Translations under genes and position numbers: made by a program
Shown: positions 6,601 to 26,105 of the stretch, piece by piece
Layout of the letters: every line of letters starts with the position of its first letter
Numbering within the stretch: the stretch's first letter is position 1
The notes under the pieces: generated by a model
Databases searched by the model: none
What the model was told of the DNA's origin: nothing
Seen by the model: only the letters and a program-made list of their open reading frames with translations
Origin: Gammaproteobacteria bacterium
GTDB lineage: Bacteria; Pseudomonadota; Gammaproteobacteria; S012-40
DNA: 64,000 nt
Reading direction: 5' to 3'
Assembly: GCA_029881255.1 (NCBI GenBank)
Contig: JAOUMY010000009.1
Location: 1-64,000 of the forward strand

Positions 6601-9600
6601 TCCTGACACTATTGTAGATTGGCGCGATCTAACAGCGGCTTTGCAACTCCAATTGCCCGACTATATGATTCCATCGACATATACCTCACTGACGGAAATG
6701 CCACTGACGTCAAGCGGCAAACTTGACCGCAAAGCACTGCCCGCGCCGGAGATGTTCAGCACTCAACGTGAATTTATTGCGCCACGCACCTCTACCGAAG
6801 AAGTACTCGCGAAAATCTGGGAAGATGTTCTCAAGCTCGAAAAAATAGGTATTTACGATAATTTCTTCGAACTCGGCGGTCATTCTCTATTAGCAACACA
6901 GGTGATTTCACGTATTCGGAAAAGTTTCAGCATCGAACTACCGCTAAAAACGATCTTTACGTCTCCCACGCTGGAGAACCTCGCCGTCGCAATCAGTCTT
7001 GTGAAAGAAAATGGGGACAATAATTTTTCCATGCCGATCAGGCCGGCCGCAAGAACATCAAACCTTCCACTCTCCTTTTCGCAGCAGCGTTTCTGGTTCC
7101 TAAATCAAATAATTCCAGACAATCCGTTTTTCAATATTCCAGTCGCATTGCACTTGGACGGAACTCTCAACTCTCAGGCCTTACACAAGTCATTCAATAT
7201 ACTTGTAGCTCGCCATGAAGGGTTGCGCACGTGCTTTCCTACGGGGGACAATGGCCAGGCACGACAAATTATTCACCCCAGGCTGGAAATTGATGTTCCA
7301 ATTATAGACCTGGAAACGCTGGCGGATAACGTTAAAGCCGCTACAATCAAAACTTACTTGTCTGAAGAAACCAAGACTCCTTTCAATCTCAATGATGGGC
7401 CTCTCATTCGAGTCCGCCTGCTGAAACTATCAACTACAAAACATATTTTACAGTTTACCCTGCATCACATAATATGCGATGGCTGGTCTCTAAATATTTT
7501 GCGCCGCGAGTTCGAACACATTTACAATGCAGTGGTCGAAAATAATCCCGTTAAATTGCCACCTCTGCCTCTGCAGTACGCCGATTTTGCCTCCTGGCAA
7601 CATGCCCGTTTGCAGGGTGAAACACTGGAAAAACAACTCTCATATTGGCGCAATAACCTAAACAATATGCCGCCGTTGCTACAATTGGCAACAGACTATC
7701 CGCGCCCTAAAATTCAAACTTATAACGGCGCCGTTGAAGTGGTTGCCATCGATAAGGAGTTAACGGGAAAACTAAAAGAAGTTGCTCAAGCCAACGACTG
7801 TACGCTATTCATGGTGCTAATGACTGCCTTCAACATTCTTCTTCATCGTTACAGTGGTCAAACCGATTTTGCCGTGGGCACTATATTGGCAAACAGACAC
7901 TACTCTGAATTAGAATCTATCGTGGGTGTATTTATCAATACGATGCCTTTGCGTGCAAACTTATCCGGAAACCCAAGCTTTAGAGAACTATTGCAACAAA
8001 CGAAAACAAACTCACTTGGCGCCCATGCCCACCAGGACATCCCCTTTGAACTACTGGTTGAAAAATTACAGCCTGAAAGAACTACAGCGTACACGCCACT
8101 TTATCAAGTTCTTTTTGTACTACAGAACACGCCTTTGGAAAGCGGAAAAAGTAACAAAGATTTGAAAATTCATGCTGGCGAATCTCCGCGCACGGTTGCG
8201 GAACACGACTTGACACTCAACCTGAGTGAATCTGCCAACGCTGTTAGCGGTATTCTCGAATACAACACCGATTTGTTTAGCGCACAAACAGCGAAAAACA
8301 TGGTAAACCACCTTCATCGCATTATAAATCAAGTCGCTGATAACCCGGAAATTTTGCTAAGTCGTGTGGATATTCTTAATCATGCCGATAAACGCATAAT
8401 CGAGACATGGAATGCGACAGAAACTCCCGTACCCGACGATGACGCTTTACATCGTTTATTTGAGAGTCAGGCGCTTAAAACACCTGATGCGGTAGCAGTT
8501 GTGTTTAACGGAGAAACGATTACCTATTCGGATCTAAATAGTAAAGCGAATCAGCTTGCACATTACATTATGGAACAAGGCGCGGGACAGGGTCGACTGA
8601 TATGCGTGTGTTTTGAGCGTTCTATTGACCTGGTAATCGCCATGATCGGCATTCTTAAATCGGGGAACGCCTATGTCCCACTAGATCCAGACTATCCACA
8701 AGAGCGTCTACGCTTTATGCTCTCGGATATCGAAACCCCACTTGTCATAACACAGCAGGACTGTCTGGAGAAAATACCAGTAACAAACACCCATGTTCTT
8801 TGCCTTGACGAGAATTGGGATATGGTTGGTCGATATCCGAAAATCAATCCGCTCACGCGCGTGTCAACCTTGTCCCTGGCCTATACAATTTATACCTCTG
8901 GCTCAACAGGGCAACCAAAAGGCGTGGGCATTACCCATCAGGGCATATGTAATCGTTTGCGATGGATGCAAAACCGCTATCAACTTGTTTCAAGTGATCG
9001 TGTGTTACAGAAAACGCCATATAGTTTCGACGTGTCGGTGTGGGAATTTTTCTGGCCTCTAATAACGGGGGCTCGCATGGTGCTGGCAAAACCCGAAGGA
9101 CACAAGGACGCAAGATACATACAACAAATCATAGATGACCATAATATTACTACCATACATTTCGTACCATCAATGCTGCAGGTATTTCTTGAACAATTGT
9201 CTCAAAACTGCTGTCAATCACTTCAACGGGTAATTTGTAGTGGCGAGGCTTTGTCGAACCAATTGGCTCAATACTTTTTCGCACGAATTAATGCCCAATT
9301 ACACAACCTATACGGTCCAACCGAAGCATCCATCGACGTTACTGCCTGGGCGTGTCGAGCAGAAGAGAAGTCATATAGCGTCCCCATAGGCAAACCAATA
9401 GCCAATACCGAAACCTATATACTGGATCAACATCTAAACCCGACCCCGATTGGAGTTCCAGGTGAACTATACCTCAGTGGTGTCGGCCTGGCCCAGGGCT
9501 ACGTCAACCGCCCCGCTCTTACTGCGCAAGCGTTTATCCCACATCCATTTGGAAAACTGCCGGGCGCACGCCTGTACAAAACGGGAGACCTGGCAAGATT

Positions 9601-12445: not shown

Positions 12446-14035
12446 ATGAACTACGATGAATGTTATCTAAAACAAAATATACAGGTTGAAGCTCTCTATA
12501 ATAACTGGTATGCATGGCCACACCTGATTTCGCCAGCCACTTCTGCCATGATAACTGCCAATTTGCATCTCAATATATTAAAGTCGTATGTCGACAATCC
12601 TGAATTACACGCAATGGCGGTTAAGAGTCCTGAAATGCTTGGCGGCCCATTCGTCGATTATGAAGGTAAGCGAGCCGACGAAATAAGCAGTCTTATCGAC
12701 AGCACAGAAACTAAATTAGGTCATTTGCTGAAATTCGCGGAAGCAGTCAAAACGTTTGATAACGAACTGCAAGCCACTGCTAAGGGATTTTCGCTCGAGC
12801 CAATGTATGAAAAGATTCCCGCCCCACTGAAAGGCTACGTCGAACTCGTCTATGATTTAAACCACAATCCATCCCTGCGTTTTATCGAAGGTCTGTTATA
12901 CAGAAGCCCTTATTATGTAGAATCCGCCCAGAGTATGTCGTTGTCAGTGATTAACCAGGACTATCGCCCCTTTGTTTTGAGTACGCCACGCCTGGAGGAC
13001 AAAAGCCACTTACATCTTCCTATTCGCTTTAACAATCCGAGAATCGATCAACTTTTCAAAATGAAAGACTCACCGAATTCTTATGCATATATAAAAGATA
13101 TCTTGCAGGTAGCCGACGACAAGGATGAGCTGTTTAAAACCTTCTTCACCGATGAACCTAATCGGAAAGATAATTCTAAGCCTGATTCCGGTGTTAGATT
13201 TCGTTATTACGGACACGCGTGTATTCTTATAGAAACTCAAGACGTAAGCATTTTGACCGATCCAGTCATTAGTTACGACTATGATAACGGTATAGATAGA
13301 TATACTTATGCCAATCTGCCAGATTCAATTGACTACTTGATAATCACGCACAATCATCAAGATCACGTTATGCTCGAAACCCTGTTACAGATACGTCACA
13401 AAGTCAAAACTGTGGTTGTACCGAGAAGCAACGGGGGATCACTCGAAGATCCGTCAGTAAAGCTTATGATGGAGGCAATAGGTTTTCAAAACGTCGTGGA
13501 ACTCGATGAGATGGAGACTATGCAAATTCCCGGAGGTTCAATAACCGGATTACCCTTTTTTGGTGAACACTCCGACCTTAATATACGAACCAAGCTCGCA
13601 CATCTCGTCAAGTTAGGTAACACCTCTCTTATGTGCGCAGCTGACTCTAACAATATTGAGCCGGCACTTTATGATCACTTGCACAAAATTTACGGAGATA
13701 TTGACGTATTGTTTCTGGGCATGGAATGTGATGGTGCGCCACTGTCCTGGCTCTACGGACCACTAGTAACTGCGCCTTTGGATCGCGCAGTTGATCAGTC
13801 TAGACGGCTTGATGGTTCTAATTATGAACGTGGTGCAAAAATCGTAGATTCATTGAAATGTAAACACGTCTATATATATGCCATGGGCCAGGAGCCATGG
13901 CTGAATTACGTCATGAGTAAAAAATATACAGAGGATTCTAATCCAATCGTGCATTCAAACAGGCTTATCACATATTGTGAAAACAGGGGAATTGTCGCGG
14001 AAAGATTGTATGGTACTAAAGAATTATATATTTAG
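12446..14035 (+). CDS. Metallo-beta-lactamase-fold hydrolase with unrecognised N-terminal domain
   Basis: The protein has 529 residues. From about residue 245 it is a metallo-beta-lactamase-fold domain: GHACILIE, the start of the fold (TDPVI), the metal-binding motif THNHQDH near 300-306, a later Asp ligand candidate in CAADSNN, and MECDG. The pattern is like the UlaG/NAPE-PLD branch (HxHxDH). The first ~240 residues match no family I recognise; they are helical-looking and contain the conserved-looking LYNNWYAWPHLISPATSAM stretch. No signal peptide is seen, so it should act in the cytoplasm. AAGGA lies 11 bases before the start codon. It is the third gene of the NRPS operon, 141 bases after the NRPS, so a tailoring, hydrolytic or oxygenase-type role on the peptide is likely. 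The reaction is unknown. Confidence 0.85.
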   Translation: MNYDECYLKQNIQVEALYNNWYAWPHLISPATSAMITANLHLNILKSYVDNPELHAMAVKSPEMLGGPFVDYEGKRADEISSLIDSTETKLGHLLKFAEAVKTFDNELQATAKGFSLEPMYEKIPAPLKGYVELVYDLNHNPSLRFIEGLLYRSPYYVESAQSMSLSVINQDYRPFVLSTPRLEDKSHLHLPIRFNNPRIDQLFKMKDSPNSYAYIKDILQVADDKDELFKTFFTDEPNRKDNSKPDSGVRFRYYGHACILIETQDVSILTDPVISYDYDNGIDRYTYANLPDSIDYLIITHNHQDHVMLETLLQIRHKVKTVVVPRSNGGSLEDPSVKLMMEAIGFQNVVELDEMETMQIPGGSITGLPFFGEHSDLNIRTKLAHLVKLGNTSLMCAADSNNIEPALYDHLHKIYGDIDVLFLGMECDGAPLSWLYGPLVTAPLDRAVDQSRRLDGSNYERGAKIVDSLKCKHVYIYAMGQEPWLNYVMSKKYTEDSNPIVHSNRLITYCENRGIVAERLYGTKELYI

Positions 14036-14175: not shown

Positions 14176-15168
14176 ATGGGCAACTTTACAATTAACATTA
14201 ATAACGCGAAGACCCGGGAAAAGGCCTTTAATCGAATGAATCGCTCATTCGATATCATTATGAAGAGACGAGAACTAAAGCATGATCCACCGTCTCTAAA
14301 AAGATGGTTTAAACGGCAAAGTTTAAATATCGAGTATCAGTTTTTAGATTACTACTTTGGCGGCCCGCCAAAGTGGAGGATTTCGCTGCGATCTCTCAAC
14401 AAGTCCAAGCGTATTTTGCCTGATTTCGCCGTCGTGTCGCCAATGAAAAGCGGATCATCCGATCTTTCCACCTACCTTTTGCAACACCCAGCGATACTCA
14501 AACAACTTTGCAAAGAAATTCCTGTCTTCCACGACTCGGATATTTGGCGCATATTCTACCCAACCGTCGATGAAAAAATTGAGATTGAAAAACGCTTTGG
14601 AACAAGTCGATGTGGCTTCTTTGCACCTTTTATAGCGCAGTCTGCAGCTCTGTCGGAGACACTGTCTAATATTCACAATAATTTTAAGATCGTATTGTTA
14701 TTAAGAGACCCAGTAAAGCGCGCGTATTCACAATGGAAGTGGGACATACTGGGTGGAGGCGTTAGAGCAAAAAATATGAAAATTTATCAGCGCTTTTCTA
14801 ATTACGCAGAACAGGCTGTTGACAGCTTTCCCGACTCCATTATGTCTAGCATATGCGGTGCCTCGATGTTGCACGAAGGCATTTACTATAAATACGTCAA
14901 TCTCTGGATTGAAAAGTTTGGTGTTGACAACGTTCTCGTCATAAATGCCTGTGATTTTTTCAAAGAAACTGAACGTACTTTAATGGAAATCTATGGCTTT
15001 TTAGGACTACCCGAATACCGGCCTCTAATTACAGACAAGATATACAATAGAAACAGAATTGAAACCGCCCCACTCGACGAGGATGCAAAATATATTTTGT
15101 CCGAATTTTACAAACCATACAACCAAAAACTATACAATCTAATTGGCAAGACATATAATTGGATTTGA
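14176..15168 (+). CDS. Sulfotransferase-fold protein; candidate phosphoramidate transferase or sulfotransferase
   Basis: This 330-residue soluble protein shows the two hallmarks of PAPS-dependent sulfotransferases: a 5'-phosphosulfate-binding loop (SPMKSGSSDLSTYLLQHP, about residues 93-110) and a 3'-phosphate-binding strand-helix (LLLRDPVKRAYSQWKW, about 174-189). The family moves a sulfuryl group from PAPS to a hydroxyl or amine. Here the convergent operon encodes a pathway to 3'-phospho-CDP-amidate, a PAPS-like donor, so I infer that the group transferred to the peptide (Ser or Tyr hydroxyl) may be phosphoramidate rather than sulfate. True sulfation stays possible. It follows the MBL-fold gene by 140 bases and precedes the radical SAM gene by 67 bases, in the same direction. 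Confidence 0.88.
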   Translation: MGNFTININNAKTREKAFNRMNRSFDIIMKRRELKHDPPSLKRWFKRQSLNIEYQFLDYYFGGPPKWRISLRSLNKSKRILPDFAVVSPMKSGSSDLSTYLLQHPAILKQLCKEIPVFHDSDIWRIFYPTVDEKIEIEKRFGTSRCGFFAPFIAQSAALSETLSNIHNNFKIVLLLRDPVKRAYSQWKWDILGGGVRAKNMKIYQRFSNYAEQAVDSFPDSIMSSICGASMLHEGIYYKYVNLWIEKFGVDNVLVINACDFFKETERTLMEIYGFLGLPEYRPLITDKIYNRNRIETAPLDEDAKYILSEFYKPYNQKLYNLIGKTYNWI

Positions 15169-15235: not shown

Positions 15236-16525
15236 ATGGAAATTTTTTCCGATAGAGTGCTTGAAGAAGTAAATACGTTTTTTGACAAAGCAACTCCTAT
15301 CAATCCTCAGCAAATTGATTTTAAAAACCCCTATTTCACTCAACCCAAACACGCCGTTAAGGAACAACTTTCTGACCCAAAGAGTTTGTTAGCCGGATTG
15401 TCTGCAGATCATTTATATGTGCACGTGCCATTTTGTGCAACACATTGCCTGTATTGTCACTATCCTACGTTGACAAATGCGCATTCGCCTGAAAATCAAC
15501 TCACTTTCTTAGAAAATATCGAGAAAGAATGGAACGAATATCAAGAAATAGGCGTCGATTTTTCGAAAGTCAAAACCGTACACATTGGTGGTGGCACACC
15601 AAACTGTTTAGACCCTGATAACCTGGAAAGATTAACTAAAAATTTGTCGGAGATATTTAAGCCTTCCATTGAATATGCTGCTGAATTATATCCTTCACCT
15701 TATGACTTAACTGAGGAAAAATTTCAAATTCTTGCAAACAACGGAGTGGATCGAGTAAGCATTGGCATTCAGACGTTTAATTATGCTATCAACGAAAGGA
15801 ATCGTCGGATAAATCAAAAGCCCGAAGATTTATTTCGTATTTTGAAGCTTGCCAAGCAATATTTCAATAACGTTTCTATTGATCTTCTTTACGGACAAAA
15901 GGAACAAACTCTGGACGATTTGTCGAAGGATTTTGAAATCACTCGAGAGCTCGAAATAAATTCCGTGTATTTATACCAAACACGTGAATTGATTGGAAAG
16001 AGGCTAATAGAGCTACAAAAGGCTCTCAATATGTTCTTAAAATATTTTTCAAGCCACGGTTATGAAATCGTTTCATTCGACCAGGTTATCAAAAAGCGAA
16101 ACAACGACGGCTTTTGCGCGCATCGTAGTGGACGTAGCCTATCGGAGAATTTGTTAGGTATTGGACCCGGATCTGTGTCGGAGATGGGGGAATATATCTT
16201 TAAGACAGTTTCACCCGAAGTTTACGCGAACCAGCCTGGAATTGATCTTGACAGCGTAGTAAAGCGTAGCGAACGAACGCAAAAACTTGAGTATTTAAAC
16301 AGAGCCTTTCGCCACTTTAATACGCCAGGAATAAATGGAATGTTGTTCGAAGACTATAGAAAACGCTTTGGCATTGACTCACCTGTTGATGACTTTCCCG
16401 AGGAAATCGAGTTTCTCAAGAACAACAAACTTATTGCGATAGATAATAGCCAAATAGAAATCACCAATCTAGGAATGCTCTTTACTCAACCAATTAATAA
16501 CTACTTGCTAGGTCATTACAAGTAG
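15236..16525 (+). CDS. Radical SAM enzyme, HemN/HemW-like
   Basis: The protein has 429 residues. A CxxxCxxC cluster motif (CATHCLYC, Cys67, Cys71, Cys74) follows LYVHVPF, the usual HemN/HemW-type entry. Next come VHIGGGTPN (SAM-binding GGE-like region), SIGIQTFN and DLLYGQ, all typical of coproporphyrinogen-dehydrogenase-like proteins. The C-terminal part has LGIGPGSVSEM and a winged-helix-like end (ITNLGMLFTQPI). Family members include HemN, the heme chaperone HemW and class C radical SAM methyltransferases, which use two SAM molecules. Inside an NRPS operon a class C methylase or another carbon-modifying role fits better than heme synthesis. GGAGAG lies 12 bases before the start codon. A housekeeping HemW copy cannot be excluded but would be out of place here. 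Confidence 0.9.
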   Translation: MEIFSDRVLEEVNTFFDKATPINPQQIDFKNPYFTQPKHAVKEQLSDPKSLLAGLSADHLYVHVPFCATHCLYCHYPTLTNAHSPENQLTFLENIEKEWNEYQEIGVDFSKVKTVHIGGGTPNCLDPDNLERLTKNLSEIFKPSIEYAAELYPSPYDLTEEKFQILANNGVDRVSIGIQTFNYAINERNRRINQKPEDLFRILKLAKQYFNNVSIDLLYGQKEQTLDDLSKDFEITRELEINSVYLYQTRELIGKRLIELQKALNMFLKYFSSHGYEIVSFDQVIKKRNNDGFCAHRSGRSLSENLLGIGPGSVSEMGEYIFKTVSPEVYANQPGIDLDSVVKRSERTQKLEYLNRAFRHFNTPGINGMLFEDYRKRFGIDSPVDDFPEEIEFLKNNKLIAIDNSQIEITNLGMLFTQPINNYLLGHYK

Positions 16526-16567: not shown

Positions 16568-17605
16568 TTGCAGCCAACGACTACGGCGTTTTGCCGGGGA
16601 GCAGATTTGGATTATTCTTTCGTAAAGAAAATTGTTTCGTCTAGCCTAACGGATATCGATCTGATCGAGGCCCGGCGCCAAGCGGTTCCCGGTAGCCATA
16701 CTGACGTAATACTAAAAGAATCTTTGCTCGACCGAATGTATGACAAGCAAGGACTACGTAAGCGCATCAGCGAAATTACTGCCAGCGGGGAGTTTATTCT
16801 TAATTCGTTTCCGTGCGAAAATTTCAGAGGCGCAAATCTTTTGCTTCGGAGTGAATTTCTAATATTGCAATATGTAGGCAACGGATGTTTAACCACTGAT
16901 CTTCTGGATGATTATATTCGACATACTATCGAGCGTATAAGAGGATTTTCCGCCTCTCGTATAATGTATCGTTGTTGCGACTATCATCGTCACGACTTCT
17001 CCTTTTTTACAAGCGATTTTTTTGCGAATCAACATTCTGCGCTTGCTAGAGGAGCCCAGCTTCTTGTTGACGAAGAAGAGCTATTTCTTTTGGATATGAA
17101 AATAGTTCAAGGTTTACTCGATTGGGGAATTCCAGTCGATATTCTAATACCTTTTGTACAGTTTCCCGATCAATTAACAGCACTACGCGATCGAGCAGAA
17201 TCATTCATTTCTTATAATGGAATTAACTCTAAGTTCGGAATGATGCTGGAGGTGCCCGCCAACCTATTTCAAATTTCTGATTATTCGGTATCAGATTTTT
17301 TTGTTTTTGGTCCGTCAGATCTTACGAAGTATTTGTATGGTGGTATAGATAGAAATGATTGGAACTACGGCAGCATTTCGGATGATGTTATTCTCGCGCC
17401 TATTGTCCACGCGATTGAGGAAATCAACTGCTTGCAAAATAGGCAGGTACTTCTTGCAAAGCAATTGCTCAACCTAGAAGAGAGGTTAGACTATCAACAG
17501 AGAGAGAGCCTGAAATTCAGGAAGCTCTTTATGCCCAATCAAATCGCAAGACCTATTACTCAATCTTCCACGAGTTCGCAGGGTGCGTATGAAGTTCATA
17601 CTTAA
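16568..17605 (+). CDS. Solitary PEP-utilising-enzyme-type barrel protein
   Basis: This 345-residue protein resembles only the C-terminal PEP/pyruvate-binding barrel of PEP synthase, PPDK and PTS enzyme I. It has an Arg-containing LLLRSEF (about 91-97, like the LLRTEF motif), GMMLEVPAN (about 224-232) and FGPSDLTKYLYGGIDRND (about 246-263, where the family has GTNDL...D-R). The usual Asn is Ser, and the C-terminal catalytic CGE motif is absent: residues after 285 look like a coiled helix (LLNLEERLDYQQRE). There is no ATP-grasp or phosphohistidine domain. The start codon is uncertain: TTG at 16568 is the first in-frame candidate with few alternatives. It sits in the NRPS operon opposite a PEP-synthase-like protein that lacks exactly this domain. 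It may be a lyase or aldolase-like enzyme, or a substrate-binding partner. Confidence 0.7.
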   Translation: MQPTTTAFCRGADLDYSFVKKIVSSSLTDIDLIEARRQAVPGSHTDVILKESLLDRMYDKQGLRKRISEITASGEFILNSFPCENFRGANLLLRSEFLILQYVGNGCLTTDLLDDYIRHTIERIRGFSASRIMYRCCDYHRHDFSFFTSDFFANQHSALARGAQLLVDEEELFLLDMKIVQGLLDWGIPVDILIPFVQFPDQLTALRDRAESFISYNGINSKFGMMLEVPANLFQISDYSVSDFFVFGPSDLTKYLYGGIDRNDWNYGSISDDVILAPIVHAIEEINCLQNRQVLLAKQLLNLEERLDYQQRESLKFRKLFMPNQIARPITQSSTSSQGAYEVHT

Positions 17606-17713: not shown

Positions 17714-18547
17714 ATGGCAATATTAAATATTTGGAAGAAACCAAGACCCCGTAGCCTGAGAAAATGGCATCAACCGCCTTGCATGAAACGAACCGAGTAT
17801 TTCGCCTATAGAGGATCTGAGTTAATCGATACCAATCTCGCCTATTTGCGTCGAACAGCGCGCAAATTTTTAGGTCCGAAATCGATTCATAAAACGCGTT
17901 TCGTTCCAGTTGAAAGTAGGTCATGGATGACAGAACTTTCAATAGCGGATCAATTCATTAACGACGTACAATTGGCCAAGTGGGGCGATCAAAACAGAGG
18001 AATACCACCGTTTAACTGGAAAGATGTACCTATATTGAAGGACCCCTTTTCCCTAGCAGTCTACCCACTACTTCTTTGGGAACTAAAACCAGCAACGGTT
18101 ATAGAACTGGGTGCGTATCTAGGCGGAAGCGCTCTATGGATGGCAGACATGATGGACACAATGAACATCAAAAGTCATGTTTACTCCTACGAGATAAAGC
18201 GTGATCTAATTAAAGTAGAACACCCGAACATAACATTCATACAGATGGATTTGAGTAAACCAGAAAATTTCGATCATGAAATGTTGAAAAGTCTGCCACA
18301 TCCATGGCTAGTGATTGAAGATGCACACGTGAATATTTATAACACGCTTAGTGTATTCGATAAGTATGTGAACGCCGGTGATTATGTCATAGTCGAAGAC
18401 ACGCTGTTTCCCGACACATCAAAAGTTGAACAATTTTATGCATTTCTATCGGAATTTGGAAGCGGTTACGAAGTTGACTCACACTATACGGATATGTATG
18501 GATATAATGCCACGTGGAATTTGAATGGGTATCTCCGAAAAAAATAG
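17714..18547 (+). CDS. CmcI-like SAM-dependent methyltransferase
   Basis: The protein has 277 residues. The core has a Rossmann motif I (VIELGAYLGGSALWMADMM, about 130-148), acidic residues at the end of strand 2 (YSYEIK) and VIVEDT near 225. The C-terminal sequence YMTD-like DMYGYNATWN plus the PFNWKDVPILKDPF segment are like the CmcI/cephalosporin-hydroxylase family of O-methyltransferases. A good ribosome site (GGAG, 7 bases before ATG 17714) fixes the start. It is the last gene of the NRPS operon, 108 bases after the barrel gene. In this setting it may methylate the peptide or the phosphoramidate oxygen. The acceptor is unknown. Confidence 0.82.
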   Translation: MAILNIWKKPRPRSLRKWHQPPCMKRTEYFAYRGSELIDTNLAYLRRTARKFLGPKSIHKTRFVPVESRSWMTELSIADQFINDVQLAKWGDQNRGIPPFNWKDVPILKDPFSLAVYPLLLWELKPATVIELGAYLGGSALWMADMMDTMNIKSHVYSYEIKRDLIKVEHPNITFIQMDLSKPENFDHEMLKSLPHPWLVIEDAHVNIYNTLSVFDKYVNAGDYVIVEDTLFPDTSKVEQFYAFLSEFGSGYEVDSHYTDMYGYNATWNLNGYLRKK

Positions 18548-18669: not shown

Positions 18670-19686
18670 TTAGCTCATGTTTACTAAAGCTTGTTCAACC
18701 GTAATAATATCTTCGTCTGTCAGCCCGAGGTGAGTAACGAGACGCACACGCTGATGACCGAAGTCGACTGTATTCACATTTGCGTCTTTCAATTTCGAGA
18801 TAAAGACAGAGTTAGCAATAGTTTCTTTAAGTACTAACACAACTATATTGGTCTCCACCGGAAGAACTTCTTTAACGTATTTGTTTTTTTTAGCCGCTAG
18901 CCCAATACGTTCGGCATTCTTATGGTCTCTCTCCAGCTTTACGATGTGATGGTCAAGTGCATAACTTGCTGCTGCAGCGAGAAACCCGGCTTGTCTCATA
19001 CCACCGCCTAATACTTTCCGTATACGTTTGGCCCTGAGAATATCTTCCCTGGTACCCATTAGAACAGAACCGACGGGTGCCCCTAAGCCTTTTGAAAAAC
19101 ACAGCGAGACACTATCAAATAATTTTCCGTATTGCCTGGGGTTCTCCTTGTTGGCTATGATCGCGTTGAATAGTCGTGCGCCATCCAAGTGAAGTTTTAA
19201 TTTCCTGCTTTTACATACTTCATGAATTGCCTCTATTTCCCGTATATCATAACAGCAACCCCCACCCCGGTTGGAGGTATTCTCCAGGCTCACCAATCTA
19301 GTAACCGGAAAATGAATATTATTCTGATTTATTTCACGAATAACTTGTTCTGCGGTAATCAAGCCAGTCCATCCACTAATTAATCGAACCGATGCGCTAG
19401 AATTAAAAGCTATTCCCCCACCTTCATATCGATATATATGCGACTCAGAACTACAGATTACCTCGTCACCAGGAGAAACGTGAAGTTTGATCGCTATTTG
19501 ATTTGTCATTGTACCGGATGGACAAAATATTGCTTTTTCCATTCCGAAACAATCGGCAGCCTTCTTCTCCAGCTCGATAACAGTTGGGTCTTCATCGAAC
19601 ACATCATCGCCAACCTTCGCCGAAAACATCGCTTCCAGCATACCTTGCGTTGGTTTCGTGACGGTATCACTTCTTAGGTCAATCAT
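18670..19686 (-). CDS. ltaE: Low-specificity L-threonine aldolase family, PLP enzyme
   Basis: The N-terminus MIDLRSDTVTKPTQGM is the classic start of threonine aldolases, so ATG 19686 is chosen over an in-frame TTG at 19701. CPSGTMTNQ, HLDGARLFNA and the PLP lysine in CFSKGLGAPVGS are all present. Length (338 residues) is normal. The family cleaves threonine and other beta-hydroxy amino acids to glycine and an aldehyde, or runs in reverse to make them. It is the last gene of the minus-strand phosphoramidate operon, about 40 bases after the nucleotidyltransferase. It could therefore supply a beta-hydroxy amino acid for the NRPS or trim one from an intermediate. A housekeeping role cannot be excluded. 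Confidence 0.9.
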   Translation of the reverse strand: MIDLRSDTVTKPTQGMLEAMFSAKVGDDVFDEDPTVIELEKKAADCFGMEKAIFCPSGTMTNQIAIKLHVSPGDEVICSSESHIYRYEGGGIAFNSSASVRLISGWTGLITAEQVIREINQNNIHFPVTRLVSLENTSNRGGGCCYDIREIEAIHEVCKSRKLKLHLDGARLFNAIIANKENPRQYGKLFDSVSLCFSKGLGAPVGSVLMGTREDILRAKRIRKVLGGGMRQAGFLAAAASYALDHHIVKLERDHKNAERIGLAAKKNKYVKEVLPVETNIVVLVLKETIANSVFISKLKDANVNTVDFGHQRVRLVTHLGLTDEDIITVEQALVNMS

Positions 19687-19727
19687 AGGTTCAATAGTCA
19701 ACTAATCATTGCCAAATGTCGATTAAA

Positions 19728-20450
19728 CTAAAACAATTTTTCTAAAGCAGAATACATCCTTAAATCCGATTCGCTATCCACCTCATACCAAGGCTGGGAA
19801 ATCGGAACACCAACTATTTCATGCCTATCGATGATTAACCTTTGCAACAAAGATGTAACATCCATTTTATCTACCTCTGGTTGCGAATAACGACTAAGGT
19901 ATGACCGTATTTTTCGCCATCCTTCTTTGGTGAATTTCATTAAACCTATGTATTGACCCTCTATCTCTTCAATCGACGAAGAACGATTTCCAATTTCTAC
20001 AATTTTGTAGTCTGACAGACGAAAGGTTTCTGCATCATCTAGTGGATTCTTGAAACGCATCTCCCACAATTTACGCCAATTCGGATCGTACGCTACAGCG
20101 ATATCTCCATTTGAATGCGCTAATTTCTCAACGGTATCTTTAGAATAAACGATATCCGAATAACTAACTAAACACGTATCAGAATCCAGCCAATCATCTG
20201 CCGCTAACAACGACACTACCATATTAGTTTCTTGCCAACGGTCATTTCGAAAATAGCGCAAATCTAAATCAAAATTCTCTGCTCGATACCCAACTACGAT
20301 GGATATTTGTTTGATATTTTCGCCTTCTAAAGCCGAGAGTTGCCAATCAATAAGTCGCTTGCCATGCAATTCCGTGAAACATTTAGGTTGCCGCTCAGTC
20401 AAATTCCCCATGCGACTGCCTCTACCCGCCGCTAATATTATTGCTTTCAT
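19728..20450 (-). CDS. Nucleotidyltransferase; likely CTP:phosphoglutamine cytidylyltransferase (Cj1416-like)
   Basis: The protein has 240 residues. The N-terminal nucleotide-binding signature LAAGRGSRMG followed by PKCFTELHGK is typical of sugar-phosphate and phosphocholine NTP transferases. The metal-binding acidic pair lies in SYSDIVYS (about 97-104). The family joins a nucleotide monophosphate to a phosphorylated acceptor. Its place between an amidotransferase and a threonine aldolase, in an operon with a glutamine-kinase-like protein and a small kinase, matches Cj1416 of Campylobacter jejuni, which turns N-phospho-glutamine plus CTP into CDP-glutamine and pyrophosphate. The gap to the upstream gene is 24 bases. 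Specificity for CTP is inferred from context only. Confidence 0.85.
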   Translation of the reverse strand: MKAIILAAGRGSRMGNLTERQPKCFTELHGKRLIDWQLSALEGENIKQISIVVGYRAENFDLDLRYFRNDRWQETNMVVSLLAADDWLDSDTCLVSYSDIVYSKDTVEKLAHSNGDIAVAYDPNWRKLWEMRFKNPLDDAETFRLSDYKIVEIGNRSSSIEEIEGQYIGLMKFTKEGWRKIRSYLSRYSQPEVDKMDVTSLLQRLIIDRHEIVGVPISQPWYEVDSESDLRMYSALEKLF

Positions 20451-20474
20451 TGATTAATACCTTGATACCGATTT

Positions 20475-21098
20475 CTATAGTCCATAATATTTCGAAATTA
20501 TTCTTTGATCAATTGGGTTAAATGGCTGGTTTCTTTCACCATGCCACATGTGACCGTATACCGGATATTTCTCATGTTCAATAGCCATCACGATTCCGTC
20601 CTCAGATTTCGCAACAATATTCAAATCAGGAACAGAATTTCTCGCTCCGTATTCGTGATAAACCGTCACAGAATCGAGTTGAAGAAGCTCTTCTGAAACA
20701 AGCCCCTGATAGACTTGCAATCGGTGGCAAGTACCAATGTGATTCTCAATTTTACCTAAGCTAACACCAAAATAATCTTGGATTATTTGCATACCGCGAC
20801 AAATACCCACAATCGGCTTCTCGTGTTGCAAAGCCCATCCGAGCAATGTTTCCTCAACAGCATCCCTTTCTTGGGCATTCCCCCCGTATTTCTGCAGCGT
20901 ATTACCGCCGGTAAATAGAACTCCAGAAAATTCTTCATAATCAAGTAGACATTTAACAAAACGAATATTATTGCTGACGAAAACCGGAAACAGATCAATT
21001 TGAAGCAGGTAGTCAGTCCACCGCTGGTCAATAGCATCCCTTCGCTCACCATAATCAACTACGTCATCGATTCTTTGTGTTACCAGGATTCTTCTCAT
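20475..21098 (-). CDS. Class I glutamine amidotransferase-like hydrolase; likely gamma-glutamyl-CDP-amidate hydrolase (Cj1417-like)
   Basis: The fold is PuuD/peptidase C26-like. The nucleophile elbow is GICRGMQIIQ (Cys) and the His/Glu part of the triad is in GHMWHGER near the C-terminus. The start is placed at ATG 21098 (MRRILVTQR), because it overlaps the stop codon of the upstream glutamine-kinase-like gene in an ATGA arrangement, implying translational coupling. Related enzymes hydrolyse gamma-glutamyl bonds. In the Campylobacter capsule pathway the equivalent, Cj1417, splits CDP-glutamine into glutamate and cytidine diphosphoramidate, so that reaction is proposed. No synthetase partner that would use released ammonia is fused or adjacent. 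Confidence 0.87.
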   Translation of the reverse strand: MRRILVTQRIDDVVDYGERRDAIDQRWTDYLLQIDLFPVFVSNNIRFVKCLLDYEEFSGVLFTGGNTLQKYGGNAQERDAVEETLLGWALQHEKPIVGICRGMQIIQDYFGVSLGKIENHIGTCHRLQVYQGLVSEELLQLDSVTVYHEYGARNSVPDLNIVAKSEDGIVMAIEHEKYPVYGHMWHGERNQPFNPIDQRIISKYYGL

Positions 21099-23419
21099 TG
21101 CAAAATATGTACTTGACGCTGAGAACAATTAATTTCTAGTACTTTTGCCTTTTCCCAGTGCCGATACAACACCTCTCCAGCTCCAATAACTGCGGGAATT
21201 CCGAGTTCACAAGCACGAATAGCCATGTGTGAATTTGCACCCCCGTATTTGGTTATAAAGCCATTTATGCTATGTGAAAAAATCCAGTCAAAACCTGGGT
21301 CTGCATTTGGCAATAGCAAAATACTACCGTTCAAAAGACTGCCGTCAGCAGCTGAGTCGACAACTCTTCCCGAATTAGATTTCAAGGTGACGAAATTTGG
21401 CTCATCTTTTGGCAGTTCAAATCTCGTAACATCCTGATCTGTACATATCAAAGGCGGCAGGCTTAAATATTTCGTAAAACGATAGTCATTCTTACCCTCT
21501 AGGATGGCACGCAGAATCGAGTCCTTTTCATTCTTAGTCGATGAATACAACCGCTTTATGACATCAATCTCTAGATAGGATAGATCGTCGGCGGTAATTC
21601 CGTAATCACATCCAACTTCTTTCACTAGACGAATGACCTCGCTGAGGCTTTTAGTAAAAACGAATTTTGCGTATTCCCTCGCCTCAATGGCGGCCTTGAT
21701 AAAGGCAAGAAAACTAACAACGTCACGTTCCAGCCCATGTTCTGTGAGCAAACGCTCCAGTTTTATTAACGCTTCCAAACTAAGAGAAAAGGTTTCTCTC
21801 TTTTCTGTAGTTAAAGTGCTGTCTTTTTCAGACCAATCAAAATAACGCTCCGGCTCTTCATCATATCGAGGTGAAAGAATATCGTATGTTCCCGGTCTAA
21901 GGTGTCCATATTTCTCAAGAAATTCTTCTTTTTCCAGCGCCATAAAGTCTTTCGTAAGCGAAGAGCTAATGCTATCCAAAGAATTCATAAAGCATTGATA
22001 ATCTGACTCACTTAAGACATTGGCTGTGACCAGAGATCTTAACATTTGAACAGCGATGAATGCAGCTCTTGCCAACCCTGCAAACGGCAATGTACCGTAA
22101 CGTTTACAATCTTCAATAAGCCAATATATTTTGTCTAGTTTGCTTATGTTACTCGAGCATATTTTATCTATTTTGTCTTGTAAGACAGACAATTTCTCAC
22201 GATCTTTTTCCCAAAGACCATTCTGGCCCCGAATGATGTTATTGGTTAACGACCTAAGGCTATTATTGATCGTTTCAATATCAGTCTCAGTAAAACCGGA
22301 GCCAAGTAAAAAATTCAGCTTCTCGGGTAAGTCGAGTGTATAGCACGAATATATAATCTCAAACTCAACTTTGTCATGGTAGCTGGGATTGCTTTCGAGT
22401 TGGTATATATAGTGGTTAACCAGCTTTGTTGCAAGTTCATCAGGAATATCCCCAGGTATAAAGGAGTTGAAGCTCACGCGCACATCAATATATGGAATAC
22501 CTGCAAAGCACACCAAAAGAGGAAAGCTTCTTAGGTTTCTGTATCCGTAATTATCTCTTTGATAGGCCCAAATACTATCTGTGATGAGTTCCTTATACAA
22601 ACTCACGGCTAAAGGACGTGGTCTACTTCCTAGTATCTCTGCAGGATTCCAGTCCGGCATAACGCCAAACACCGTTTTTTCTCCTAGTAAATACGGATGA
22701 GATCCACTAAGCTCGACTATTCTTTGTTGAATACCTAGTATTTCTTGCGACTGTGAATTTATGCTTAGCGGGTCTTCTTCAGGCAGAACAAGTGGCCTAA
22801 CTTGTAGTAAGACAAGCTGCCCCTCCTTATCAATCGCAAACTCGACATCAATTGAATCATGACTAAGCAGCGCTTCCAGTTCTTTTACAAGCACTATCAC
22901 ATTCTCTAGCTTGTCATTGTAGTCACCAACATTATTTAATTTCGCCAAATAAAACGTCCGTAAATTATTTGTTGAACCACTAGTGACTGTATCGGTTTGA
23001 CCTGAACAATCATCGTAGTTGACAACATAATAATGAGCCCCACTATTAGGGTCTCTTGAAAATGCAACCCCACTCAGATAGACGTTTTTTAGCATCGGTT
23101 GGATAAATATTTCGTCTTCCGAACTCGATAGCCGATTACAGACCAAGTCTATTGAACGATTTATTTCAGTCAATCCGCTTACGTCAGCAATCGTAAGATA
23201 ATGTCCCGCGAGGGATACATTTGCTGTATCCTCACTTGTGGCACTACTCCGGACGATGACTTCGCCGCTGATCCAGTCGGGCAACTCGCCAATATTGGAA
23301 ATGTCGTTCTTAGACGAAAACCATTGTGCGCGTGTAAAACAAAACTGCGGTAGTACAATAGCACTTTGTATGTTGTGCTCAAGTTGGCCTAGTGTTCGTG
23401 CTTTTGTCAGAAAGTGCAT
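21095..23419 (-). CDS. PEP-synthase-like kinase without PEP barrel; likely L-glutamine kinase (Cj1418-like)
   Basis: The protein has 774 residues. The N-terminal ATP-grasp half of PEP synthase/PPDK is visible: VRSSATSEDTANVSLAGHY (about 56-74), GVAFSRDP and LLQVRPLV (about 210), which closes the domain. The C-terminus is the swivelling phosphohistidine domain, YGGANSHMAIRACELGIPAV, with the catalytic His near 731. The PEP/pyruvate barrel that PEP synthase carries after this domain is absent, and the middle ~450 residues are unlike it. This architecture and length are those of Cj1418 of Campylobacter jejuni, which uses ATP and water to phosphorylate the amide nitrogen of L-glutamine, giving AMP and phosphate. 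With the other Cj1415-1417-like genes around it, glutamine kinase is the best reading. It is coupled by ATGA to the amidotransferase gene downstream. Confidence 0.88.
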   Translation of the reverse strand: MHFLTKARTLGQLEHNIQSAIVLPQFCFTRAQWFSSKNDISNIGELPDWISGEVIVRSSATSEDTANVSLAGHYLTIADVSGLTEINRSIDLVCNRLSSSEDEIFIQPMLKNVYLSGVAFSRDPNSGAHYYVVNYDDCSGQTDTVTSGSTNNLRTFYLAKLNNVGDYNDKLENVIVLVKELEALLSHDSIDVEFAIDKEGQLVLLQVRPLVLPEEDPLSINSQSQEILGIQQRIVELSGSHPYLLGEKTVFGVMPDWNPAEILGSRPRPLAVSLYKELITDSIWAYQRDNYGYRNLRSFPLLVCFAGIPYIDVRVSFNSFIPGDIPDELATKLVNHYIYQLESNPSYHDKVEFEIIYSCYTLDLPEKLNFLLGSGFTETDIETINNSLRSLTNNIIRGQNGLWEKDREKLSVLQDKIDKICSSNISKLDKIYWLIEDCKRYGTLPFAGLARAAFIAVQMLRSLVTANVLSESDYQCFMNSLDSISSSLTKDFMALEKEEFLEKYGHLRPGTYDILSPRYDEEPERYFDWSEKDSTLTTEKRETFSLSLEALIKLERLLTEHGLERDVVSFLAFIKAAIEAREYAKFVFTKSLSEVIRLVKEVGCDYGITADDLSYLEIDVIKRLYSSTKNEKDSILRAILEGKNDYRFTKYLSLPPLICTDQDVTRFELPKDEPNFVTLKSNSGRVVDSAADGSLLNGSILLLPNADPGFDWIFSHSINGFITKYGGANSHMAIRACELGIPAVIGAGEVLYRHWEKAKVLEINCSQRQVHILQ

Positions 23420-23431
23420 TCTGGGACCTGG

Positions 23432-24208
23432 CTAAACAGTTCTGGCGGACCATGCTCTTGTAAGATAGGTGGTTTCGATCCCATCCATATGGCCGACAAA
23501 TTTTTCGACATACGCCATAAATGCGTTAAATCTATCCTCCCCAGCTTGTACTCGAATATCATTAACTGACCACCACGCACCGAGATATTGCTCTGGTGTT
23601 TGTGTGACAGTGTGACGACCTTCTATGTATACCACATCATCGAAAAATGGTGATTCATTCAGTTTTTGAGTCAAGGTAGTCGTTAACCCAGAACGTCCGG
23701 AAGATACTCGTTTGAGCTCAGGCACCATTTCGTGTAGCGTATTTTCAATTTCGACCAGAACCGGATTTTCCTCAATTAGTCTTGGATTCCAAAGAGCGGC
23801 AAACCGCCCTCCCTTCCTTAGTACTCTGGAGAATTCCTTAACTCCCGCATCAAAATCCACCCAGTGAAATGACGATGCCATCGTTAAGAAATCAACAGAA
23901 TCAGATTCAAGACCAGTATCTTCGCCTTTGCCTTTATACCAACGAACGGGTAGGCCGGCGCAGTCTGCGATCCCTTTCGATCTCATTTCCTCGTTAGGTT
24001 CTACAGCAATTGCTGATTTCACCGATCTACTGCAAACCATCCTTGTCCATATCCCGGTTCCCGCACCCACGTCTGCAAAGTCTACTCCCGGTGCAGGCTT
24101 TTCTAGCAGACTAAATAGAGCAGCTAAAACACTTTCCGAGTATCCGGGCCGATATGCCGAATAGTTATCAGCTAGATTTGTATAATCTCCAAGTTTTTCA
24201 ATATTCAT
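23432..24208 (-). CDS. Class I SAM-dependent methyltransferase
   Basis: The protein has 258 residues. Motif I is VDFADVGAGTGIWTRMV (about 40-56), and FLTMASSFHWVDFDAGVKEFSRVLRKGGRFAALWNPR is split across the usual post-motif II/III region of ubiquinone/menaquinone-type methyltransferases. The start overlaps the end of the small kinase gene by 11 bases and the stop is 12 bases before the glutamine-kinase gene, so it belongs to the phosphoramidate operon. C. jejuni has two methyltransferases (Cj1419, Cj1420) at the equivalent place that are thought to make the O-methyl group of its phosphoramidate. The same job is inferred here. Confidence 0.85.
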   Translation of the reverse strand: MNIEKLGDYTNLADNYSAYRPGYSESVLAALFSLLEKPAPGVDFADVGAGTGIWTRMVCSRSVKSAIAVEPNEEMRSKGIADCAGLPVRWYKGKGEDTGLESDSVDFLTMASSFHWVDFDAGVKEFSRVLRKGGRFAALWNPRLIEENPVLVEIENTLHEMVPELKRVSSGRSGLTTTLTQKLNESPFFDDVVYIEGRHTVTQTPEQYLGAWWSVNDIRVQAGEDRFNAFMAYVEKFVGHMDGIETTYLTRAWSARTV

Positions 24209-24737
24209 CCTGGCTTTCCAATCCTGTAATTAACGTTAAAAATATTTCATCTATTCCTTGTGCCCCATCATTTACGATTGTTAAGTCAGGCCTTACCGGA
24301 AACTCTGCAACAACATCAACTCCCATAACATTCTCGATTTTCCCAGCTAGTGCATGGCTATACAGCCGTTTCTGGTCTCTTTTAACCAAAATTTCTATAG
24401 GCACATCTATAAATATCTCGATATAATTTTCTATGTTCGCACGATTCCAATCCTGAACTTCATGGAACATAGAAATAGTAGCGCACACAACATCCTTATT
24501 TTGGTCAGACAGCATCTTACACAATCTGGAATATCGTTTGGCCAAAGCTAGTCTTTCGCTCCGTGTATGTGCGTGAATATCACCAAACACTTCGCGCAGC
24601 TCATCTCCATCTAAAAAGACAACACTTTTTCCATTTTCTTTCAGGTATTGAGCCAGCTTGCTCGCAAGCGTTGTTTTGCCAGCGCCTGACAAACCGGTAA
24701 CCCAAAATACCGTTCCAGAATCGTTTACTTTAATCAT
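24198..24737 (-). CDS. CysC-like P-loop kinase; likely cytidine diphosphoramidate kinase (Cj1415-like)
   Basis: The protein has 179 residues. A P-loop GLSGAGKTTLASKL (about 15-28) and DGDELREVFGD give it an adenylylsulfate-kinase look, and automated annotation would call it CysC. It lacks the APS-kinase segment that normally follows (N-x-D-L-G-F-S-x-x-D-R-x-E-N); instead it has HTRSERLALAKRYSRLCK and VVCATISMF. No ATP sulfurylase (CysD/CysN or Sat) gene lies nearby. In the capsule phosphoramidate pathway Cj1415 has the same misleading annotation and puts a 3'-phosphate on CDP-amidate, giving a PAPS-like donor. The operon context supports that reading. A real APS kinase feeding the sulfotransferase-fold proteins is the alternative. 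Confidence 0.84.
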   Translation of the reverse strand: MIKVNDSGTVFWVTGLSGAGKTTLASKLAQYLKENGKSVVFLDGDELREVFGDIHAHTRSERLALAKRYSRLCKMLSDQNKDVVCATISMFHEVQDWNRANIENYIEIFIDVPIEILVKRDQKRLYSHALAGKIENVMGVDVVAEFPVRPDLTIVNDGAQGIDEIFLTLITGLESQDEY

Positions 24738-24917: not shown

Positions 24918-26105
24918 TTAAGCAACGTTTGGCATCTTCTGTCCATGATTAAAGTTCTGTGAGGACTTGGGCTGTAACACATTTATATAAAAATAATTTG
25001 TATTGATCAGTTTATCTTGTTTAAACAGCATTTTTCTAAACTTAAAGCCCAAGTAAATAACTCTCCACAACCTTACGAAGAATACCCCGCCTCGAATGCC
25101 CGCTAAAGATCCGTTGACAAGGTACTCACGCTCAGCTTTCATCGGCAACAACAGTAACATAAAGGCCATATATTTTCCTACAGCTTTTACTTTTGGATCA
25201 TATCCGAAGTTAGCAAACCTATTACGGAAAAAGTACGCCATAACCTTCATATCCATATTGGAATAAAAGCTTAACCAAGAGTTATCTTCAAAGTTCTCAA
25301 TAAAGCCATTTACTTTCCTCTCAGTCGCGCTGTCACCCCACCATTTATACCCATAGATAGTGCTTTCAAGCAGTACAGGGTCAAAGTCAATCGTTATGTA
25401 TTCGCAGATTCGTTCCAGGATCAATTTCTGAAAATTATGGATATCCTCGAGTCTCAGCGCGGCGCAATCCAGATTCTTTCTATTTCTTGTGAGTTCAGAT
25501 ATATCCATCAAAGACGTGATAACCTGCCTGTAAAAATAAGCTATATTGCAATGTTCCGTGATTTTAGTCTTGCTGACAAAAGTCGATTTGATGGCGGCCC
25601 GAGGATCTCTACTTAACGCTATCGCTCTGGCATCACTATGGAGGGGCTTGACCGTCAACAACTCGTATACATCATGAATGTGATGAACAATAATCTTTTT
25701 ATCTGTTGCATCCTTTCCAGTTCGCGCAAAGTCATACGCGTAATGCACAGCATAAAAAAAGTCTTCTTCGCAGACTTCATCAGCATATGATAGCAGGTCC
25801 AGAAGCTTTGTTCTAAAACGCTGTTCTGAAACAGCAACGATTTCATTTTGATTTTCACCCAACTCGTCGAACTTTAGGAAAGAGACATTGTTAATACTAA
25901 ACAGATTGGGAAAGAATTCGACAAATTTATCTACTAATTGCTCCTTATTGAATTCACCATTTTTTCGCCAAAACATTGGGTACTGGAAAATTTGAGAAAT
26001 CATGAGAATTTGAGGATGACTATCCAGAAGACTTTGAAAAAAAATACTTCCATTTCGCCCCGTGGTTACAATGTATACAACAGGCAATCTAGTTATTCTT
26101 GACAT
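24918..26105 (-). CDS. Sulfotransferase-fold protein; candidate phosphoramidate transferase
   Basis: The protein has 395 residues. The donor-binding loop VYIVTTGRNGSIFFQSLLDS is at about 10-29 and the 3'-phosphate motif AIALSRDPRAAIKSTF at about 163-178. These are the two PAPS-type binding elements. It lies on the phosphoramidate operon, 180 bases upstream of the small kinase that would make the 3'-phosphorylated donor. I infer it is the transferase that moves phosphoramidate (or sulfate) to the peptide hydroxyl. The C-terminus is long and basic, with a possible amphipathic or membrane-associated stretch (AFMLLLLPMKAEREYL). It differs clearly in sequence from the sulfotransferase-fold protein of the NRPS operon, so the two may act on different groups or acceptors. 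Confidence 0.85.
   Translation of the reverse strand: MSRITRLPVVYIVTTGRNGSIFFQSLLDSHPQILMISQIFQYPMFWRKNGEFNKEQLVDKFVEFFPNLFSINNVSFLKFDELGENQNEIVAVSEQRFRTKLLDLLSYADEVCEEDFFYAVHYAYDFARTGKDATDKKIIVHHIHDVYELLTVKPLHSDARAIALSRDPRAAIKSTFVSKTKITEHCNIAYFYRQVITSLMDISELTRNRKNLDCAALRLEDIHNFQKLILERICEYITIDFDPVLLESTIYGYKWWGDSATERKVNGFIENFEDNSWLSFYSNMDMKVMAYFFRNRFANFGYDPKVKAVGKYMAFMLLLLPMKAEREYLVNGSLAGIRGGVFFVRLWRVIYLGFKFRKMLFKQDKLINTNYFYINVLQPKSSQNFNHGQKMPNVA

Follow-up and report, generated by a model that had tools for sequence, protein, structure and literature searches.

In a 64,000-nucleotide stretch of gammaproteobacterial DNA (bases 1-64000 of the 192-kb contig C9, JAOUMY010000009.1, in a 4.97-Mb genome; hereafter the window), we identified a minus-strand operon that would make and use an activated phosphoramidate, with the product of a converging non-ribosomal peptide synthetase (NRPS) gene run as its likeliest acceptor. 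This explanation as a whole is tentative, and we give it a probability of roughly 0.42. Its first part is much firmer: by homology with the enzymes of Campylobacter, from which the donor chemistry is already known, four genes of the operon very probably encode the four donor-forming reactions. Protein families, motifs, gene order and fold were observed directly, and the genes of the run are as follows, where CDP and CTP stand for cytidine diphosphate and triphosphate, PEP for phosphoenolpyruvate, SAM for S-adenosylmethionine and PLP for pyridoxal phosphate.

24918..26105, minus strand: ST2, sulfotransferase-fold protein of 395 aa, proposed phosphoramidate transferase (Sulfotransfer_3, fold, adjacency)
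24198..24737, minus strand: CDAK, CysC-like kinase, predicted CDP-amidate 3'-kinase (Cj1415-like; NF004041/PRK05541)
23432..24208, minus strand: MT, SAM methyltransferase, the regular fifth cassette gene (Methyltransf_11, 4.6e-14)
21095..23419, minus strand: GlnK, PEP-synthase-like protein of 774 aa without barrel, predicted L-glutamine kinase (Cj1418-like; NF004508)
20475..21098, minus strand: GATase, predicted gamma-glutamyl-CDP-amidate hydrolase (Cj1417-like; NF045546)
19728..20450, minus strand: NT, predicted CTP:phosphoglutamine cytidylyltransferase (Cj1416-like; NTP_transf_3, 7e-19)
18670..19701, minus strand: threonine-aldolase-like PLP enzyme, last gene of the run (Beta_elim_lyase, 7e-94)

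The genes are transcribed in the order listed, from ST2 to the threonine-aldolase-like gene, with successive gaps of 180, -11, 12, -4, 24, and 26 bp (negative values are overlaps). The original prediction, made from the sequence alone, had placed four donor genes at 19728-24737, and they were found there in the order it gave, including the ATGA overlap that couples GlnK to GATase (ATG at 21098, TGA at 21097-21095). Given this overlap, GATase probably starts at 21098, and the mechanical open reading frame (ORF) begins at 21128. The prediction had overlooked MT inside the cassette and the ST2 gene upstream, as well as another complete cassette at a different genomic site.

The homologous Campylobacter enzymes, Cj1415-Cj1418, convert glutamine, ATP and CTP to CDP-phosphoramidate 3'-phosphate (PMC11800397), and the pathway decorates sugars in that genus, as had been stated correctly (PMC11800397, PMC3907429). 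In the pathway proposed for the window, GlnK would phosphorylate glutamine on its amide nitrogen at the expense of ATP, NT would combine the product with CTP to give gamma-glutamyl-CDP-amidate, GATase would remove glutamate to leave CDP-amidate, and CDAK would add a 3'-phosphate to yield 3'-phospho-CDP-amidate, a close analogue of 3'-phosphoadenosine 5'-phosphosulfate (PAPS). ST2 would take PO(NH2) from this donor and place it on a hydroxyl, most likely one of the neighbouring NRPS product, for example in a serine or a beta-hydroxylated residue. MT, which adjoins the glutamine kinase gene in most cassette loci, might O-methylate the phosphoramidate.

GlnK matched the family model NF004508/PRK05849 over residues 2-773 with 971 bits (cut-off 501), compared with 71 bits for the best PEP-synthase model and only 50 of the 740 bits needed for the PEP-synthase equivalog TIGR01418. 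The NF004508 model carries the name 'hypothetical protein', and we take Cj1418 to be one of its members. The protein has PPDK_N and PEP-utilizers domains (ATP-grasp and swivelling histidine domain) and, as predicted, no PEP-utilizers_C barrel, and the histidine near residue 731 is His731 in the motif GGANSHMAIR, which is kept in at least 95% of 100 homologues; conservation also extends to Asp/Arg motifs and to the stretch MPDWNPAE, which is specific to the family. In a phylogenetic tree, from which only this separation was used because of its long outgroup branches, GlnK and 99 homologues stood apart from the PpsA of the same genome. That PpsA is encoded on contig C4 and a pyruvate phosphate dikinase (PPDK) on contig C1, and GlnK does not group with the pyruvate-specific PEP synthases.

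The best family for GATase was NF045546 (gamma-glutamyl-CDP-amidate hydrolase; 106 bits, E 2.8e-30), 55 bits above any other family. This score lies under the curated cut-off of 250 bits, which counts against a strict assignment; since the GATases of other cassettes tested against this model likewise stay below it (103-149 bits), the protein appears to belong to a sister group that works alike, rather than being a strict member. The Cys-His-Glu triad of class I amidotransferases (C110, H196, and E198 in the numbering of the 217-aa ORF) is kept in at least 95% of 98 alignment rows. NT, for which there is no dedicated Cj1416 family model, has CTP:phosphocholine cytidylyltransferase 1jyk as its closest PDB chain (4e-11) and occupies the same position in nearly all cassettes. 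CDAK exceeded the PRK05541 cut-off (196 versus 127 bits) and fell under that of TIGR00455, the equivalog for adenosine 5'-phosphosulfate (APS) kinase (115.8 versus 138.7 bits). It lacks the APS-kinase stretch FTGxDSPYE, as had been noted, and shows a different pattern with WNR that is common to 64 cassette kinases; the true APS kinase of the genome is a separate CysNC encoded elsewhere, from which CDAK is distinct. Families, motifs, phylogeny, and gene order across phyla thus give good support to the prediction of a complete phosphoramidate-donor cassette.

A scan of one genome per species yielded 456 stretches encoding GlnK relatives, and the best 80 of 456, which were examined as loci, came from Pseudomonadota, Acidobacteriota, Planctomycetota, Verrucomicrobiota, Bdellovibrionota, Bacillota, Chlamydiota, and others. 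In even samples that include the genome under study, a GlnK over the cut-off was encoded by 15 of 398 genomes of the phylum (approximately 4%) and 10 of 369 of the class. The CDAK-MT-GlnK-GATase-NT set recurs with small rearrangements across many bacterial phyla and is therefore not specific to Campylobacter. A 2022 review still termed the glutamine kinase C. jejuni-specific (PMC9561416), whereas these results present the pathway as a portable cassette in many phyla. Neither this wide spread, nor the sulfotransferase-fold partner, nor the NRPS neighbourhood was found described in the open-licence literature searched. Cassettes were not found in viral contigs; a sequence labelled Bacteriophage sp. 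(MT837632.1, locus L148) looks bacterial and encodes a GlnK-GATase fusion with no other cassette gene nearby.

The second full five-gene cassette of the genome (G000:C1:77474-82495; L007:15475-19198 and L008:174-1495) has the same gene order and is 50% identical, and the tree indicates that the two are not recent duplicates. Its neighbours are a sulfotransferase-like gene (L008:1692-2669), a glycosyltransferase gene, and a gene for a 664-aa protein without a Pfam match. The protein with sulfotransferase-like loops differs from ST2 and has homologues beside three other cassettes; its structural model was too poor to be used (predicted template modelling score, pTM, 0.43).

The genes that converge on the cassette are given below, with C, A, T, MT, and TE denoting condensation, adenylation, thiolation, methyltransferase, and thioesterase domains of the synthetases.

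4..3606, plus strand: NRPS gene truncated at its 5' side by the contig boundary and continuing on contig C33 (3' part)
3662..12304, plus strand: NRPS, TubC_N-C-A-T-C-A-MT-T-TE (Pfam; first A domain DVCHISLIHK, second DVWHISLID)
12446..14035, plus strand: CmlA-type diiron beta-hydroxylase for carrier-bound amino acids (CmlA_N, 4e-93)
14176..15168, plus strand: ST1, sulfotransferase nearest to ordinary PAPS-type enzymes (Sulfotransfer_1, 6e-10; heparan 3-O-sulfotransferases, 4e-9)
15236..16525, plus strand: HemN-like radical SAM protein (Radical_SAM, 3e-20)
16568..17605, plus strand: stand-alone PEP-binding TIM-barrel domain protein (PEP-utilizers_C, 5.5e-10)
17714..18547, plus strand: CmcI/rhamnosyl O-methyltransferase-like protein, last of the NRPS run (RMNT_CmcI, 1e-15)

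The predicted convergence of the two runs was confirmed, with a gap of 122 bp between the end of the CmcI-like gene and the threonine aldolase gene. The phosphoramidate-bearing peptide proposed on this basis is plausible, because sugar genes are not found nearby, KpsC/KpsS-type genes are missing, and three cassettes of Paenibacillus have biosynthetic genes of a non-sugar type around them, but it draws on adjacency in one genome. Glycan genes were not found among the window ORFs scanned, which were not all of its ORFs, and the absence of capsule genes from view extends to the whole genome, in which PF05159 (Capsule_synth) had no match. Possible sources of a hydroxyl are the Ser-like A domains and the CmlA hydroxylase. 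In other genomes the cassette tends to adjoin genes for what it decorates, and a crude post hoc estimate puts chance adjacency of the cassette and an NRPS cluster at 0.3-0.8%. With proximity as the evidence, the NRPS product is a possible acceptor at somewhat less than an even chance, and another acceptor is about as likely. The more specific proposal, an NRPS peptide carrying a (methyl) phosphoramidate on a hydroxyl through the CDP-amidate route and an ST2-type enzyme that uses 3'-phospho-CDP-amidate instead of PAPS, is more doubtful. If true, such a phosphorus-nitrogen (P-N) peptide would imply that both the enzyme activity and this kind of peptide tailoring are new, and the NRPS link, if real, would offer a genome-mining handle for P-N peptides. 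Shared base composition was rejected as proof of one island, since the GC content at third codon positions is similar in both runs (0.35-0.45) but also in other genes of the window.

The strongest competing explanation is that the cassette and ST2 form a self-contained operon decorating a surface glycan or another acceptor made elsewhere, beside which the NRPS genes lie by accident, and we regard this as a serious possibility at a little under even odds. Several observations speak for it and weigh against the peptide: most cassettes, including those that bear ST2, lie near glycosyltransferase and nucleotide-sugar genes; a condensation domain was beside the cassette in none of approximately 110 other loci examined; and the two runs are convergent rather than co-directional, and so are not transcriptionally coupled. 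A relative of the same family also carries GlnK-GATase-NT followed by sugar-aminotransferase and glycosyltransferase genes, as recognised by eye. However, the self-contained operon would be expected near glycan genes, as other loci usually hold the genes of their acceptor, and none are near it here; it also has to accommodate the lack of PF05159 genes and the presence of a second cassette that already stands beside a glycosyltransferase.

The NRPS system itself extends beyond the window. The contig starts within an adenylation domain, and contig C33 continues the gene through an exact overlap of 127 bp; the joined C33 + C9 protein has 2199 aa and the architecture C-A(Ser-like)-T-C-A(DASTIAAVCK)-T. 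At least five modules are linked, with the codes DGWTIAAICK, DVWHISLIDK, DASTIAAVCK, DVCHISLIHK, and DVWHISLID (with a methyltransferase), followed by the thioesterase. We take the codes DVWHISLIDK and DVWHISLID to be Ser-like. Further NRPS modules are encoded on contigs C23, C29, C32, and C35, and C23 (L122) holds another NRPS run, whose NRPS genes are interspersed with asparagine-synthase-like and TauD-like genes. Between the NRPS core and the cassette lie five tailoring-type genes and the threonine aldolase gene that ends the cassette run. The latter may be a housekeeping gene because it is the only copy in the genome, and it was rejected as a dedicated peptide gene for this reason; it is absent from the other cassette loci compared, and its membership of the system is uncertain. 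The stand-alone PEP barrel (16568-17605) is an orphan: searching the 398 genomes of its phylum (E 1e-12) and plasmids gave no homologue.

Cassettes were also observed in other settings. In Paenibacillus agilis N4 (L066 and L167), a non-sugar biosynthetic run of approximately 28 kb holds all cassette genes, with the cassette split, together with an AMP ligase, a chorismate enzyme, ABC transporters, a radical SAM protein, a luciferase-like monooxygenase, and stand-alone pieces of a PEP-synthase-like enzyme. Two further Paenibacillus loci (L078:4914-16195 and L080:761-11651) contain two ketosynthase-like genes and an AMP-binding-ST2 fusion, followed by the cassette, suggesting an acyl- or aminoacyl-linked phosphoramidate product. 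On an Agrobacterium vitis plasmid (L168:7089-16997) and in Allorhizobium ampelinum S4 (L123), where GlnK is divided between two reading frames, GlnK-GATase-NT accompanies LysE exporters, a CDP-alcohol phosphotransferase, a class II tRNA-synthetase-like protein, TauD, and asparaginase, which looks like a system for a small amino-acid-type P-N compound. In Pseudomonas-type loci (L039, L043, L045, L055, L061, L064, L067, L068, and L088), the cassette lies beside sugar-aminotransferase genes and flagellar hook/basal-body genes, the hook genes being recognised by eye, and this suggests phosphoramidate on flagellar glycans.

The enzyme proposed to use the donor, ST2, scored just under the cut-off of Pfam Sulfotransfer_3 (26.6 versus 27, E 8e-6). 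The best structural matches of its AlphaFold model (pTM 0.78) were curacin/olefin-synthase sulfotransferases (Z 15.4/15.6), and the match at Z 15.6 covered 239 residues with a root-mean-square deviation of 4.3. Of the 80 loci, 15 encode an ST2 homologue, and additional genomes do so too, almost invariably with its gene right next to the cassette; such genes adjoin it in approximately 20 other loci from diverse phyla, usually on the same strand with gaps of 0-290 bp, and in two Paenibacillus loci an ST2 domain fused to an AMP-binding domain lies directly upstream of GlnK. An alignment of 15 homologues revealed a conserved GRSGS...DGHP loop and an R-D/E/N-P...S motif (R166-D-P...S in ST2). In sulfotransferases, loops of these kinds bind PAPS at its 5'-phosphosulfate end and at its 3'-phosphate. 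Because the fold and the R-D-P...S motif suit a donor that bears a 3'-phosphate, we propose ST2 as the probable phosphoramidate transferase. A sulfotransferase-fold enzyme would be sensible here, since the donor, like PAPS, is a nucleotide that bears an activated group and a 3'-phosphate, and a transferase of this kind would explain why the donor carries a 3'-phosphate. The recurring neighbour provides a testable candidate for the enzyme that transfers phosphoramidate.

Alternatively, ST2 might be an ordinary PAPS-dependent sulfotransferase, with the phosphoramidate transferase (e.g., of the Glyphos_transf type) encoded elsewhere. The fold of ST2 is that of PAPS enzymes, many cassettes have no ST2 homologue within reach, and Glyphos_transf-type (PF04464) proteins were seen in cassettes of Pseudomonas and Chitinibacteraceae. 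More than one type of transferase may exist, because genes resembling that for CDP-glycerol glycerophosphotransferase (PF04464), or genes for a CDP-alcohol phosphotransferase, are present in other cassettes. The proposed role of ST2 is also weakened by the fact that its presence does not track that of CDAK (14 of 61 versus 7 of 25 full-flank loci), which left the idea that ST2 is confined to CDAK-bearing cassettes unsupported and is tempered by the finding that CDAK can lie distant from the rest of the cassette, as in P. agilis. Nevertheless, an ordinary sulfotransferase is the less likely reading, as ST2 homologues lie so close to the cassette across many phyla, and no sulfate-activation genes were noticed beside ST2 in the window. 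ST1 (14176-15168) was considered as a second phosphoramidate transferase on account of a homologue inside the Parachlamydiales cassette L100, and was rejected as non-specific because its similarity to heparan sulfotransferases exceeds that to the L100 protein. Finally, the view that the four donor genes serve general metabolism, as genes for an enzyme resembling PEP synthase, for an APS kinase, and for otherwise unrelated enzymes, which broad Pfam names such as APS_kinase, PPDK_N, and GATase would by themselves permit, is very improbable given the shortfall against both equivalogs, the presence of real PpsA and CysNC elsewhere in the genome, and the conservation of the gene set as a unit.

Compared with known systems, the operon is closest in its donor part to the O-methyl phosphoramidate (MeOPN) pathway of Campylobacter jejuni, with which it shares the same four donor-forming enzyme kinds, likened through family models. 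It differs in having no capsule locus, in the order CDAK-MT-GlnK-GATase-NT, and in its NRPS neighbour; in addition, Cj1421/Cj1422 are the transferases in C. jejuni, whereas a sulfotransferase-fold gene is the likely one here. Methyltransferases lie near both sets, namely MT here and Cj1419/Cj1420 in C. jejuni. With PAPS-dependent sulfotransferases (Sulfotransfer_3; StaL/Teg12; curacin and olefin-synthase sulfotransferase domains), ST2 shares the fold and the phosphate-binding loops, and these enzymes likewise depend on a CysC-type kinase for a nucleotide donor with a 3'-phosphate; ST2, in contrast, is linked to the CDP-amidate pathway rather than to sulfate activation and would transfer PO(NH2) instead of SO3. 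A P-N bond on peptide-like compounds is known from phosphoramidon/talopeptin and phaseolotoxin (PMC6429109) and from microcin C, and no paper tying the glutamine-kinase donor route to known P-N natural products was found in the open-licence literature searched. The loci of Paenibacillus agilis N4 and Paenibacillus sp. 598K / P. kobensis resemble the present one in combining a full cassette and an ST2 homologue in a non-sugar setting, but they have AMP-binding enzymes, ketosynthase-like genes, or chorismate-using enzymes in place of NRPS condensation domains.

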